35,144 bases of DNA. It comes from Pirellula sp. GTDB lineage: Bacteria > Planctomycetota > Planctomycetia > Pirellulales > PNKZ01. The notes beneath the pieces were generated by a model, which ran no database searches, was not told the origin of the DNA, and was given only the letters and a program-made list of their open reading frames with translations. Positions 26,974 through 31,372 of this stretch are shown here, in pieces. A program made the translations under genes and the position numbers. Location of the stretch: assembly GCA_013822735.1 (NCBI GenBank), contig PNKZ01000031.1, forward strand, positions 17,501 through 52,644, in the 5' to 3' direction. Positions within the stretch are counted from its first letter, which is position 1; the number at the start of each line of letters is the position of its first letter.

Positions 26974-27001
26974 TTGACGACCGTTACCTGGAGACGATAA
27001 T
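26974..27001 (+). promoter_or_regulatory. Sigma-70-type promoter of the EF-hand gene
   Basis: TTGACG (26974-26979) and GATAAT (26996-27001) are 16 bp apart, each one mismatch from consensus. They lie 42 bp before the EF-hand protein start. Confidence 0.65.
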
Positions 27002-27042
27002 GCTCAAAACGCTTTCCCCTGAGAGTTTTTGGGAGCATTCGC

Positions 27043-27288
27043 ATGCGCCACGTAGCCTTCGCTCTCGCGTATGTGCTGTTTGTCGGAACGACGAACGCTT
27101 CGTTCGCGGCCGACGTGAAAGACGCCGTACCGGCAAACGTGAAGCGACAGATCTTCCATCGTTATGATTTCAACCGCGACGGCAAACTAAGCATTGCCGA
27201 GAAGGGTGCTGCCCGTTTGGCGGTCGGCTCCGTGCGCCAAGCCAACGGCGTGAAGCGGAATAACAAAATCGTCCGTACAATTCGATGA
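27043..27288 (+). CDS. Small secreted EF-hand protein
   Basis: 81 aa. A signal peptide (hydrophobic VAFALAYVLFVGTT, cleavage near Ala22-Ala23) is followed by one canonical calcium-binding loop, DFNRDGKLSIAE (42-53). The ligands fit positions 1, 3, 5, 9 and 12, with Gly at 6 and Leu at 8. The C-terminal 25 residues are basic. A single EF-hand suggests dimerisation or a structural Ca2+ site; EF-hand small exported proteins are common in planctomycetes. A GGGAG sequence lies about 8 nt upstream of the ATG and a sigma-70 promoter further up. Function unknown. Confidence 0.72.
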   Translation: MRHVAFALAYVLFVGTTNASFAADVKDAVPANVKRQIFHRYDFNRDGKLSIAEKGAARLAVGSVRQANGVKRNNKIVRTIR

Positions 27289-27538
27289 CGATCGGTTTGT
27301 CTCATCGTAGTCAAGCGCAGTTTTGGGCCGGCCAAAAGTTGCCTGGAGATTGATTCGCCGCGTTGCTAACGTGACGAGTTGATCTTTGGCAATTGGAAAG
27401 TTGCAGGCACACGCCGTGTGCCGTCCGCAGAAGCTCCATTCCGCATTCTTCCGGCAAGGGAGATAGGGGGATGAGAAGGGGATGTGGGGAATAACAGGAA
27501 CAGCGAGCCGGGAGCGTGAGCGACTGGAGTCTTTATTT

Positions 27539-27624
27539 GTAGGGTGCGTCGAACGAAGTGAGGCCCACGCGGTTGTGCAACGTCGGCTTTCCGCGTGGGC
27601 CTTGCTTTGCCCGACCCATCCTAC
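27539..27624. repeat. Palindromic repeat, family C
   Basis: The outer arms GTAGGGTGCGTCG (27539-27551) and CGACCCATCCTAC (27612-27624) are inverted with two mismatches. The inner arms GGCCCACGCGG (27562-27572) and CCGCGTGGGCC (27591-27601) are perfect. It has the general form of a dispersed mobile palindrome. Confidence 0.75.
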
Positions 27625-27655
27625 GTCTAGCTCTAAGTTCTCGTCTCCATATCCC

Positions 27656-27785
27656 ACTTACGTCGACGATTGAAAACGCACTGCGCAGATAACGGTAACT
27701 ATCTGCGCACAACCTCAAAACCCACAAGGGGTGCGCAGATAACTCGAGATATCTGCGCAGGGCCAAAACGAGAATCGACGTAAGT
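27656..27785. repeat. Nested palindrome element: two internal palindromes within outer inverted repeats
   Basis: Outer arms ACTTACGTCGA (27656-27666) and TCGACGTAAGT (27775-27785) are perfect 11-bp inverted repeats. Inside are two palindromes with identical 10-bp arms, TGCGCAGATA-8 nt-TATCTGCGCA, at 27682-27709 and 27732-27759, spaced exactly 50 bp apart. The 8-nt centres differ (ACGGTAAC, ACTCGAGA). There is no ORF. Confidence 0.9.
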
Positions 27786-27827
27786 CGGATTTGCGAAGGG
27801 GTACTTACGGCGATTTCACAGGGTTAT

Positions 27828-27884
27828 ATTTAGCCCGCCGTCGGCGACGGCGGGCGCCCCCCGGTCGCTGACCGGGGGCTAAAT
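27828..27884. repeat. Two-hairpin palindromic repeat, family B-like
   Basis: ATTTAGC and GCTAAAT ends frame two hairpins: GCCCGCCGTC-GGC-GACGGCGGGC (27833-27855) and CCCCCGGTC-GCT-GACCGGGGG (27858-27878 with the flanking C/G). It shares the TTAGCC...GGGCTAA plan of the doublet at 25526-25636 but differs in arm sequence. Confidence 0.8.
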
Positions 27885-27912
27885 AGAAAGCGCATAAATA
27901 GAAGCCGCATCG

Positions 27913-27940
27913 CGGAACGCTACGGAGGGCGTTCCCTACA
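27913..27940. repeat. Palindromic repeat, family A, single arm
   Basis: A 28-nt sequence containing GGAGGGCGTTCCCTACA matches the right arm of the copies at 4628-4657 and 6315-6342. No matching left arm is present, so it is a solo arm. Confidence 0.85.
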
Positions 27941-27958
27941 GGCAACCGACATGTCGGC

Positions 27959-30900
27959 TTACGGCTCGACGCTCGCCTTCTTCGCTTCGCGCTCCGTGGC
28001 GTATTTCAGTTTCGGTTGCGGGCGGGCCTCGTACGCCTTCACATTCGCGGCGAGCACTTGCAGCGCCTTCTCAAGTTGCACGTCTTTTCCCGCGGGGAGT
28101 TGGCCCGGCTCCGGCCAGACGAGGACGTCGGGCACACAGCCGTGGAGTTCCATATCTTCGCCTGAGCCGGGGAGGAACCAACCCCGGAACGGAAACCGCA
28201 AGGTGCCGAGGTCCATGATCGAGACGGCTCCGGTACTTACCACGCCGCCGGCGGTCGGCACGCCCACGATGGGCCCGCGGCGCAGCGTCTTGATCGCGTG
28301 GCTGAAGATCTCCGCATTGGAGAAGCTGTTCTGGTTGCAAAGCACGACGATCGGCTTGTTCCACGTCGCATAGATTTTGCGATCTTGCGGATAGCCCGGC
28401 TTGCCGCCGCGCGGCACCGTGATGGCGTGGCGCGGCTGCGTCAGCATCGTCAGCAGATGGTCGGTCGTCGAGCCGCCGCCGTTTTCACGGACGTCGATCA
28501 CGAGGCCGTCTTTGCCCGAGGCTGCGGAGAAGAGTTCCTCTTCGAAGCGCAATAGGCTCGGCTCGTCCATGCCGGCGATGTGGACGTAGCCGAATTTCCC
28601 CTTGCTTGCCGTTTCGACGAAGCGGCGCGTGTCGCGCACCCACTTCTCATAGAGCAGTTTCGGCAAGAGGTCGTACGGAATCGGACGGACAATCACTTCC
28701 CGTTCTTCACCCTTCGCATTCTTCACCTTCAAGTGAATATCGCGGGCGAGCGGACCATTAAGCACCTTCGTCAGGTCCATCGCCGGATCGACCGCACGAT
28801 TGTCGATCGACACGATGATCTCGCCGGGGAGCAATCGGGAGCGGATTTCGTCCGTCGGCCCGTGGGGAATGACGTCGCGAATCTTGAGGCCGGGGCCCTT
28901 GTACGACGGATCGAAGCGGACGCCAAGATGTGCCGTCGGCGCCGACCAACCGCCGGGCTCAGAAGTCTTCGTCACGGAGTTCGGCAGGAAGCCCAAGTGC
29001 GAACCGTTCAGTTCGCCGAGCATCAGCACGACGATCGTCGTAAACGTAAGATCATCGGGAGATTTCGCGGCCGCATCGTGATACTTGCGACGGATCTCGT
29101 CCCAGTTCTTGTTGCCGAGCCGCGGATCGTACCAATGGTCGCGCATGGTGCGCCAGCACATGTCGAATGCAGCACCGTAGCGAGCGGCAAGATCGACCGT
29201 TTGCCGGGCCGTGAAACGATAGGCCGTCTGCTTGCCCGTCGAACTCACCGAAGCCGGTACGCCGTCGGCGAGCCACACGATTTGATTTCCTTCACTCAAC
29301 CAACGGGCGTTGGTTCCCATATCGGAGCAAAAATGCGACGGCGTGGTCGGCGACGGGAAGCTGACGGTGAACAAGCCTTTCTGGTCGCGAATGGTGCTTG
29401 TGAACGCAAGCTTCTTGGAATCCGGCGACCAGAAGAGTTCTTCTTCCACGGCGTCGGCAATGCGAATGGTACGCAAGCGCTCATGAAGGCCGTCGAAGTC
29501 GATCTGCACCGGGGTGGGCGACTTCGCCGTCGTGCTGGATGCGGAGGTCGGTGTCGTAGTCGTCGTTGCGGCAGAGGGAGTTGCTGCCGTTGTTGGTATA
29601 GCGGTCGCGGTCGCCGCCGCCTTTGTGGCCGAGGCAGTAGGTGTAGGAGGAGTCGTGGCGGTGGGAGTTGGCGAAGTTGTCGGTGTCGGCGTCGGTTTGC
29701 GTCGCGCTTTTTGCAGTTTTTCCAAGGCCGACTCGAGCGTCCGTTCGCGGGCGTCGGTTTCGGCGTCTTGTTTACGGAGCCAAACGTAATGGATATCCAC
29801 TTCTTCCCGCGCGCGCCGGCCTGTGAAGGCGATCACCTTGCCGTCGGGCGACCAAACGGGATTGCCGTCGTTGTCCGGATGACGGGAGATGTTGAACGGC
29901 GTGCCGGTGCCGTCGGCCGGACGGATCCAAACGTCGCGATTGAATTCCTCGTCGAACGCCGCGTAGACAATCCATTTCGCGTCGGGCGACCAATCGAATT
30001 GCGGTTCCTCCCACGCTTCGAAGATTTGCTTCGGATCGCCGCCGTCGGCTGCGCGGGTCCAAAGTTCGCCGCGGCCGCGCACGTAAGCAAAGCGTTTGCC
30101 GTCGGGAGCGAACTCGAGCGACGATTCGACATCGGCGTCGTGCGTCACGCGTTCGACCGGAAACTCATCGTTGCGCCACCAGAATCGTTTGGTGTTCTTA
30201 CGCTTCGCCCGCCAAATGTCGGCCTGGCCGTCGCGATCGCTGACGAACAGCAACGACTCGCCGTCGGGACTCCAACGAACATCGCGTTCTTCTTCCGGCG
30301 TGGCGGTGACTTGCCGCGGCTCGCGCAGCTCGGTGTCCATGACCCAAACGTCGCCGCCGGCGATGAACGCGATTTCGAGCCCGTCGTTGGTGAAATCGGC
30401 TTCGGCGGCTTTCGTCAGGCTCACACGACGTTCGGCCTCGGGCAAGTCGTCCACGTCGGCAAGAATGCGGATCTTGCGCGGCTCGACCTTCTCGGCAGGA
30501 TGGAAGGAATACAAATCGAAGAGCTTGCGAAAGACCAGTGTCCGGCCGTCGCGGGCGAGCGTGGGATAGGTGACTGCGTCGTCGGTGTAGTGGGTGAGTT
30601 GGCGGCCGACGCCGGCTTTCAGATCGTATTCCCAAAGGTTAAGAATGCCCGACTCACCGGAGATGTAGTAGAAGCCCGAGGCGTCGGGCTTCCACAGCGG
30701 CCAGCGGCAACCGCCCGCTGCGGCGACAATTTTGGTGAATTGCTTCGTCGTGAGATCGTAGCGCCAAATCTGCGCGTCTTGCGAACCGACATAACCTTTT
30801 CGCCACCAAGGCGCACCTTCACGCACGAAGAGCAATTGCTTGGCATCGGGCGAGAGCGACGCCTCGGTCCCGTAGTCGTCGAAGAGAAGTTGGTCGGCGC

Positions 30901-31372
30901 GTTGGTTCTTATGATCTTCGACGACGGCCGTTTGGAAAAAGCGCTCACCCTTCTTCCAACCATGATCGCGCGTTGCGCTGGTGAGCAAGTACTTGCCGTC
31001 GGGATACCAACCTTCGAGCGCGTAGCCGGCGGAGTGCGACGTTTGCCGAATCGGCTCGCCGCCCGCGGCGGGCATAACGAACACTTGCGGGCCCTCGCCG
31101 CGGTCGCCGATGAAGGCGAGTTGCTTTCCGTCGGGAGAGAACTTCGGCTGCTGATCGCGGCCGGTGTGCGTGGTCAGACGTCGCGCGGCGCCCCCCTTCG
31201 TCGCTACGGTCCAGATGTCGCCGCGCCAGGCAAAGGCGACGCGGGAACCGTCGGGCGAAAGATTGGGCTGCGAGGGGAGCAGCACGTCTTCAGCGGCCGA
31301 CGACGGCGCGAGGGTCGAGTTGAAAAGCGCGAGCAAGGTCGCGGCAATCGCGAACAGGCGGGGAGAGTTCAT
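27959..31372 (-). CDS. Tricorn-type S41 family peptidase, exported
   Basis: 1137 aa with a signal peptide (about 1-27). An N-terminal array of PD40/WD-like beta-propeller repeats (LSPDGSRVAFAW, FSPDGKQLAFIGD, WSPDGESLLFVSD and others) spans about 30-555 and resumes at about 625-720. A Thr/Pro/Ala low-complexity insert occupies about 558-622. The C-terminal part has the tricorn core: GELNGSHLG with His792, a PDZ domain (GLKIRDVIPHG, about 820-880) and the S41 protease domain with VIDVRENGGG and NQNSFSNAEIFSHA. Nucleophile Ser1016 lies in the latter. Tricorn homologues degrade peptides; the signal peptide places this one outside the cytoplasm. No Shine-Dalgarno is evident. It is divergent from the beta-barrel candidate. 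Confidence 0.92.
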   Translation of the reverse strand: MNSPRLFAIAATLLALFNSTLAPSSAAEDVLLPSQPNLSPDGSRVAFAWRGDIWTVATKGGAARRLTTHTGRDQQPKFSPDGKQLAFIGDRGEGPQVFVMPAAGGEPIRQTSHSAGYALEGWYPDGKYLLTSATRDHGWKKGERFFQTAVVEDHKNQRADQLLFDDYGTEASLSPDAKQLLFVREGAPWWRKGYVGSQDAQIWRYDLTTKQFTKIVAAAGGCRWPLWKPDASGFYYISGESGILNLWEYDLKAGVGRQLTHYTDDAVTYPTLARDGRTLVFRKLFDLYSFHPAEKVEPRKIRILADVDDLPEAERRVSLTKAAEADFTNDGLEIAFIAGGDVWVMDTELREPRQVTATPEEERDVRWSPDGESLLFVSDRDGQADIWRAKRKNTKRFWWRNDEFPVERVTHDADVESSLEFAPDGKRFAYVRGRGELWTRAADGGDPKQIFEAWEEPQFDWSPDAKWIVYAAFDEEFNRDVWIRPADGTGTPFNISRHPDNDGNPVWSPDGKVIAFTGRRAREEVDIHYVWLRKQDAETDARERTLESALEKLQKARRKPTPTPTTSPTPTATTPPTPTASATKAAATATAIPTTAATPSAATTTTTPTSASSTTAKSPTPVQIDFDGLHERLRTIRIADAVEEELFWSPDSKKLAFTSTIRDQKGLFTVSFPSPTTPSHFCSDMGTNARWLSEGNQIVWLADGVPASVSSTGKQTAYRFTARQTVDLAARYGAAFDMCWRTMRDHWYDPRLGNKNWDEIRRKYHDAAAKSPDDLTFTTIVVLMLGELNGSHLGFLPNSVTKTSEPGGWSAPTAHLGVRFDPSYKGPGLKIRDVIPHGPTDEIRSRLLPGEIIVSIDNRAVDPAMDLTKVLNGPLARDIHLKVKNAKGEEREVIVRPIPYDLLPKLLYEKWVRDTRRFVETASKGKFGYVHIAGMDEPSLLRFEEELFSAASGKDGLVIDVRENGGGSTTDHLLTMLTQPRHAITVPRGGKPGYPQDRKIYATWNKPIVVLCNQNSFSNAEIFSHAIKTLRRGPIVGVPTAGGVVSTGAVSIMDLGTLRFPFRGWFLPGSGEDMELHGCVPDVLVWPEPGQLPAGKDVQLEKALQVLAANVKAYEARPQPKLKYATEREAKKASVEP

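Follow-up and report, generated by a model that had tools for sequence, protein, structure and literature searches.

A repeat family of twin palindromes and helically phased outer motifs in Pirellula: a putative non-autonomous mobile element

The twin palindromes described here lie in a 35,144-nt stretch of Pirellula sp. DNA, which we call the window (G000:C31:17501-52644). On balance, we think it probable that they are part of a single copy of a family of non-coding intergenic repeats, a putative non-autonomous mobile element with a phased multi-site binding array. A trans-acting, sequence-specific protein, likeliest a recombinase or transposase, would bind both palindromes at their four TGCG-type half-sites and also the M sites that flank them; the resulting nucleoprotein complex, single, symmetric, and set on a fixed helical face, would mobilise the element. 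The arms would differ between species because the specificity of the protein drifts and just the matching copies keep working. An earlier note on this DNA had suggested a small non-autonomous mobile element or a multi-site binding array, and this suggestion is supported by the high copy number, by outer arms and a spacing that recur, and by an orthologous interval that lacks the element. In what follows, G000 is the genome of the window (6.88 Mb in 38 contigs), with gene content suggestive of a planctomycete, G001, G002, and G003 belong to the same genus, and G006 belongs to a different genus of the same family.

Anatomy of the element

The window copy is flanked by a small ORF (27043-27288), located downstream of an enolase gene, and by the 3' end of a tricorn-like protease gene. 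Its parts are as follows.

27656..27666, plus strand: motif M2, ACTTACGTCGA, the left outer arm, 16 bp ahead of P1 as counted on the 10-bp form ACTTACGTCG
27682..27709, unstranded: palindrome P1, with 10-bp arms and an 8-nt centre
27710..27731, plus strand: conserved 22-nt middle, CAACCTCAAAACCCACAAGGGG, which sets the orientation of the element
27732..27759, unstranded: palindrome P2, 50 bp from P1
27775..27785, minus strand: motif M3, TCGACGTAAGT, the right outer arm, 16 bp past P2 as counted on the 10-bp form CGACGTAAGT
27803..27812, plus strand: motif M4, ACTTACGGCG, with one mismatch, the inverted partner of M3 (M3-M4 span, 37 bp)
27656..27812, unstranded: the whole element as seen in the window, by comparison with 41 own-genome copies
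27959-31372, minus strand: tricorn-like protease gene

The palindromes are placed as the earlier note had described (27682-27709 and 27732-27759), with identical 10-bp arms (TGCGCAGATA/TATCTGCGCA), different 8-nt centres (ACGGTAAC and ACTCGAGA), and a start-to-start distance of 50 bp; the outer 11-bp inverted repeats, ACTTACGTCGA at 27656-27666 and TCGACGTAAGT at 27775-27785, are indeed perfect. The coordinates given there hold for these parts, but the element is larger, with additional M copies beyond the 11-bp arms (M4 at 27803-27812 in the window copy).

Along the strand of the middle, the order of the element is M1 (CGACGTAAGT), M2 (ACTTACGTCG), P1, middle, P2, M3 (CGACGTAAGT), and M4 (ACTTACGTCG). 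The palindrome pair is the core of an element of ~130-236 bp with two to four copies of the outer motif M: many copies have M1 to M4, and some have just M2 and M3, while the window copy has M2, M3, and M4, the M1 of many other copies being missing on its left. The distance from M1 to M4 is 209-236 bp in G001, and the minimal M2-M3 form is 130-136 bp; the palindromes are 28-29 bp long, and the middle is 22 nt in 92 of 98 parsed cores. As single-stranded DNA, the segment 27650-27795 is predicted to fold with -41.1 kcal/mol, versus -16.7 +/- 2.6 in shuffles (DNA parameters).

Copy number and distribution

The palindrome TGCGCAGATA-N8-TATCTGCGCA occurs in 81 copies in its own genome (at most 3 mismatches), versus 0 for the reversed-pattern control. 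The exact pair TATCTGCGCA-N(10-35)-TGCGCAGATA was found 40 times (control 0), with a gap of 22 nt in 39 and 25 nt in one, and the 11-bp frame ACTTACGTCGA-N(95-125)-TCGACGTAAGT 30 times exactly (control 0). The earlier note had proposed a check of copy number, spacing, and outer arms, and all three recur; it had held that a single occurrence without conservation in relatives would mean chance or decay, while many copies in the own genome and in relatives carry the design. The palindrome pattern never appeared in 100 dinucleotide shuffles of the window, even at 3 mismatches. Chance palindromes or decayed sequence, for which no support was found, are therefore rejected on the shuffles (0/100) and the 81 genome copies against a control of 0, and we give them practically no weight.

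The elements lie outside predicted genes in 97 of the 98 parsed cases, as judged with a home-made gene caller. These 98 distinct oriented cores were kept from 131 rows in both orientations and had to begin with [TC]GCG, end with [CT]GCA, and pair at 6 or more of 9 arm positions per palindrome. Elements with damaged palindromes, for example L046, L050, and L063, fall outside the 98, as does a subfamily with a longer middle (L162, L166, and L167 in G000; L209, L212, L214, L215, L219, and L221 in G001). The middle of this subfamily is GTCGGAGCGCTTACCAACAAGGGG or near forms, and it is common to G000 and G001, whose main subfamilies differ. In the own genome, 41 elements were recovered from the fetched loci by a script keyed on the middle end plus one palindrome arm, and a broader parse found both inner M sites, with at most 2 mismatches, in 43 of 44 G000 cores, the exception being L045. 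Seven G000 contig ends (C4, C14, C18, C22, C25, C28, and C31) lie within ~150 bp of an element, so the element repeats probably break the assembly.

Exact M2-M3 frames were also present in G001 (14) and G003 (4), with a control of 0, and none was found in G002 or in eight genomes of other genera. Each genome has its own arms and middles, the arms being TGCGCAGATA in G000, of the TGCGCACT, TGCGTACT, TGCGTACAA, and TGCGTGCAA forms in G001, and TGCGCATCTA in G003. In G001, 19 copies (query included) make up one subfamily, in which 16 of the 18 others are 90-95% identical to the query and the remaining two are 88% and 82% identical. G003 is listed with 8% contamination, and two of its 8 cores are on contigs C117 and C251 (L201, L155), which hold G001-type elements; these contigs may be contamination because a neighbour protein on C117 is 99.7% identical to its G001 counterpart.

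From 53 core sequences, those left of the 98 after near-identical cores had been removed, a covariance model was built, which matched 11 of 11 scored candidates in each of G000, G001, G003, and G006. The G006 arms are TGCGCGG-like, and by eye M motifs stand beside some G006 cores. Among 396 sampled genomes of the order, the core model matched 7 in all under stricter filters, which lose weak matches: the four just named and three others with one weak match each (E 1.5e-4 to 4.8e-4), and the two of these three that were inspected bore no resemblance to the element. Of the 396 genomes, 4 contain the exact M-pair pattern; in one of them, G080, the match is a single, longer hairpin that seems to be unrelated. 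Plasmid and phage collections gave no match at distant blastn sensitivity, and IMG/VR gave 0 exact matches. GTDB contigs gave 3, where about one would be expected by chance on rough arithmetic; because each 8-kb locus holds a single pair and no M motif (at most 2 mismatches) lies within 160 bp at any of them, we read all 3 as chance. No matching repeat family was found in a shallow search of open-licence literature, including excerpts of PMC3733652, PMC3116915, PMC12306157, and PMC10969869.

Helical phasing and mirror symmetry

The spacings of the element take few values. The 129 distinct M pairs of the fetched loci measured 37 bp (84), 48 bp (43), 47 bp (1), or 49 bp (1), with no other length within the allowed range of 20-75 bp, and the two motifs of a pair are separated by 17 or 28 nt. 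The gaps from M2 to P1 and from P2 to M3 are 16-18 or 27-29 bp, and those of M1 and M4 are 43-44, 53-56, or 66-67 bp, with one outlying M4 at 82 bp, which falls beyond the range of the symmetry count below. The spacings therefore change in steps of ~11 bp, that is, one helical turn, and we infer that a protein complex assembled on double-stranded DNA would require steps of about this size. Because the subfamilies are related, the independent steps are few, at least three by our reading.

The layout is also mirror-symmetric. Both inner M sites lay inside the search ranges in 94 of the 98 parsed elements, and their left and right gaps were equal within 1 bp in all 94; the outer gaps were equal within 2 bp in all 63 elements with both outer M sites. 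Spacer letters were mirror-identical at 38% versus 26% in shuffles for G000, 33% versus 24% for G001, and 28% versus 25% for six G003 elements. Since the left and right gaps agree while the letters are weakly mirror-similar, the lengths of the spacers are kept and their letters mostly are not.

Joint change of the half-sites

In a 53-row alignment, the two arms of each palindrome paired in 92.5% of cells, a value inflated by the finding of copies through their palindrome arms and by the pairing required of the cores, and 150 cells had changed on both sides versus 52.5 in shuffles. Two of the five within-palindrome measures did not exceed the shuffles (pairs with change on both sides, 12 versus 11.1; further pair types, 23 versus 23.9), and the other within-palindrome covariation measures are inflated by related copies. 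Pairing across the two palindromes, of outer with outer and inner with inner arms, reached 91.7%, with 145 cells changed on both sides, and here no pairing had been required, the requirement having been applied within each palindrome. Because covariation across the palindromes equals that within them, the four half-sites behave as one sequence changing together. The hairpin structure contained G-U pairs in 4 of 1060 cells. In 11 sister pairs, M and arm positions differed at 18/660 versus 207/715 in the spacers, a comparison covering 24 of the 41 copies, those with 16/16 spacing, all found by their arms. At arm position 5, in the orientation of the element, C.A exceeds T.G by 16 to 3 among copies that are related.

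The helical steps, the joint change of the half-sites, and the few G-U pairs favour recognition of double-stranded DNA by a symmetric protein complex, rather than RNA hairpins, because an RNA stem needs no match between the palindromes and would be expected to show G-U steps. The earlier note had left open whether the arms are recognised as DNA sites or as RNA stems; the helical-step spacing and the joint change favour the former over the latter.

Evidence on mobility

The interval between the enolase and tricorn genes holds no element in G001 or G003 (excerpts of 1.1 and 1.2 kb, respectively). TGCGCA is absent from both excerpts, and the M-like 10-mers are one in G001 (1 mismatch) and two in G003 (2 mismatches). 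Target duplications, which the earlier note had proposed to look for, did not turn up convincingly: among 63 long and 14 short copies and over 36 offset combinations, there was no convincing target-site duplication at 2-9 bp, the 6 junction matches at 2 bp versus 2.2 expected being the best of the 36 combinations, and nothing at 3-9 bp was convincing. Within the fetched loci there was no coding or ORF-bearing copy, no related autonomous element with a transposase, and no recurrent neighbouring gene family beyond what seem to be ordinary paralogues. The neighbour scan covered 146 of 176 neighbour genes, each up to 333 aa, and the commonest 25 of 147 families, so that a lone transposase gene among the neighbours may have gone unseen; the genome-wide search for transposases covered one family (PF01797).

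Comparison of the G000 and G001 element neighbours gave seven gene matches at 74-93% identity, of which six agree in side and orientation, where one or two on any side or orientation would be expected by chance if each genome has ~5,500 genes, as we assumed. These shared neighbours are as compatible with the retention of old copies, or with insertion hot spots, as with free movement. At the best shared locus, elements with different arms (L048 in G000, L204 in G001) lie upstream of the same gene, which we take from its sequence to be RNase R-like; CSD2 and OB_RNB domains were found in two of the 146 scanned neighbours. The spacers at this locus are weakly similar on the left (ranks 25 and 32 of 674) and unremarkable elsewhere.

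Alternative explanations

The shared loci bring up a host-maintained binding array, in which a chromosomal protein, a nucleoid organiser or a regulator, keeps the copies and mobility is minor or past. We regard this as rather doubtful. The motif positions are intact while the spacers diverge (partly an effect of ascertainment), several G000 and G001 copies have an orthologous neighbour gene in common, with side and orientation preserved, and the RNase R-like gene has a copy upstream of it in both species, the arms being different, all of which such an array would explain; against it speak a copy number that varies between dozens (G000 and G001) and no detected copy (G002), a window interval that is empty in two congeners, and the weak similarity of the spacers even at the best shared locus. 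It is unlikely that the element is REPIN-like and travels as single-stranded hairpins with the help of a REP-associated tyrosine transposase (RAYT). Such an element would account for the paired inverted palindromes, the fixed spacing with a variable inside, and the lack of a convincing target duplication, REP-like hairpin repeats adjoin many copies, and Y1 transposase genes are present in all four genomes searched (G000, G001, G002, and G007). However, 0 of 22 Y1 loci (8 in G000, 4 in G001, 6 in G002, and 4 in G007, so 12 from the element-bearing genomes G000 and G001) had an M pair or a matching palindrome nearby, six having one isolated M-like 10-mer with one mismatch, neither a GTAG nor a CGTC tag stands beside the palindrome stem, and spacing steps of a helical turn are not expected of single-stranded hairpins.

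We consider it very improbable that the palindromes are the stems of a structured RNA (a leader, attenuator, terminator, or small RNA). The strong predicted fold (DNA parameters) and the pairing covariation would suit such an RNA, some copies have, by eye, a promoter-like motif on one side and the start of a gene on the other, and the C.A excess at arm position 5 would be G-U on the opposite strand. A scan for intrinsic terminators in the window copy found one weak consensus site on P1, on the minus strand, with the tail GTGCGTTTTC (0.3 expected in shuffles), and none on P2. On the other side are the 4 G-U cells of 1060, the covariation between the palindromes equal to that within, the mixed orientations of genes around the copies, and 11-bp steps for which RNA offers no rationale. 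A known Rfam RNA is rejected, since no family reached its gathering score in 27000-28500, where five matches were sub-threshold.

Comparison with known systems

The phased, putatively mobile family resembles several known ones in part, and we could not assign it to any of those compared. REPINs, as described in excerpts of PMC3116915, likewise have inverted palindromic ends around a length-sensitive spacer and are intergenic and non-autonomous. In contrast to them, the element has two full palindromes with two to four M sites, helical-step spacing, stems without a GTAG/CGTC tag, and no linked RAYT that we found. Its palindromes do have the size (28-29 bp, within 20-40 bp) and the copy number (81) of REP sequences; an unpaired tag was not seen by eye beside P1 or P2, the letters CGTC occurring in M, 16-29 bp away. 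The tagged REPs covered in excerpts of PMC3733652 are high-copy intergenic palindromes too, and CGTC REPs with stems of 8-9 bp and loops of 4-5 nt are reported there without a dedicated transposase, but the M pairs are separated by 17 or 28 nt instead of such loops.

The bacterial MITEs named in excerpts of PMC3733652 (ERIC, NEMIS, RUP, and Nezha) share with the element a length of 70-300 bp, non-coding sequence, inverted termini, and a position often beside coding sequences, but the element has no convincing target duplication (63 long and 14 short copies). Its fetched loci show no recurrent transposase ORF and no parent transposon was found there, and its conserved parts look more like phased internal sites than like terminal repeats of 15-30 bp; the ends are 11-bp perfect inverted repeats, often AATCGACGTAAGT...ACTTACGTCGATT in G001 (by eye). 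With neither the tag nor the linked RAYT of a REPIN found, and no convincing target duplication as in a MITE, the element was filed as neither. A CRISPR repeat, which the earlier note had set aside, does not fit, the 22-nt middle being common to the copies and each element having two palindromes. Lambda-type attachment sites combine inverted core sites with outer arm-type sites, as the element does; it differs from them in its dozens of dispersed copies with two palindromes each, and no integrase family was among the commonest 25 of 147 neighbour families.

The usual explanations of small intergenic repeats are single-stranded hairpins (REPINs) and transposon relics. A symmetric, helix-phased layout that outlasts a change of its recognition letters points instead to a double-stranded nucleoprotein machine. 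A bolder proposal, which we put forward tentatively, is that up to eight half-sites (four palindromic and at most four M) form one helically phased, mirror-symmetric platform, and that a protein whose specificity shifts between species drags along the half-sites of dozens of copies, perhaps with those at orthologous loci among them. The arms would then undergo concerted evolution across the genome, and the family would be a new class of dispersed bacterial element. If this is true, the joint turnover of binding letters in dozens of copies would make protein-site co-evolution directly testable in related species.

Sequences adjoining the element

Judged by eye, other REP-like hairpin repeats adjoin many copies, often the same repeat on the same side. 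In the window, a REP/BIME-like inverted repeat, GTAGGGTGCGTCGAACGAAG...CCCATCCTAC, occupies 27539-27624 and recurs next to several of the other copies. Another REP-like repeat, a double hairpin (TTTAGCCCGCCGTCGGCGACGGCGGGC...CCGGGGGCTAAAT), lies at 27824-27888 and is accompanied by a 15-bp direct repeat at 27880-27909; many copies have it on their right at a similar distance. The motif GGCCGGCCAAA was seen by eye upstream of genes at window 27326-27337 and at loci L048, L053, L058, and L204, sometimes followed by a TAGAAT- or TATAAT-like box, and looks like a shared promoter element.
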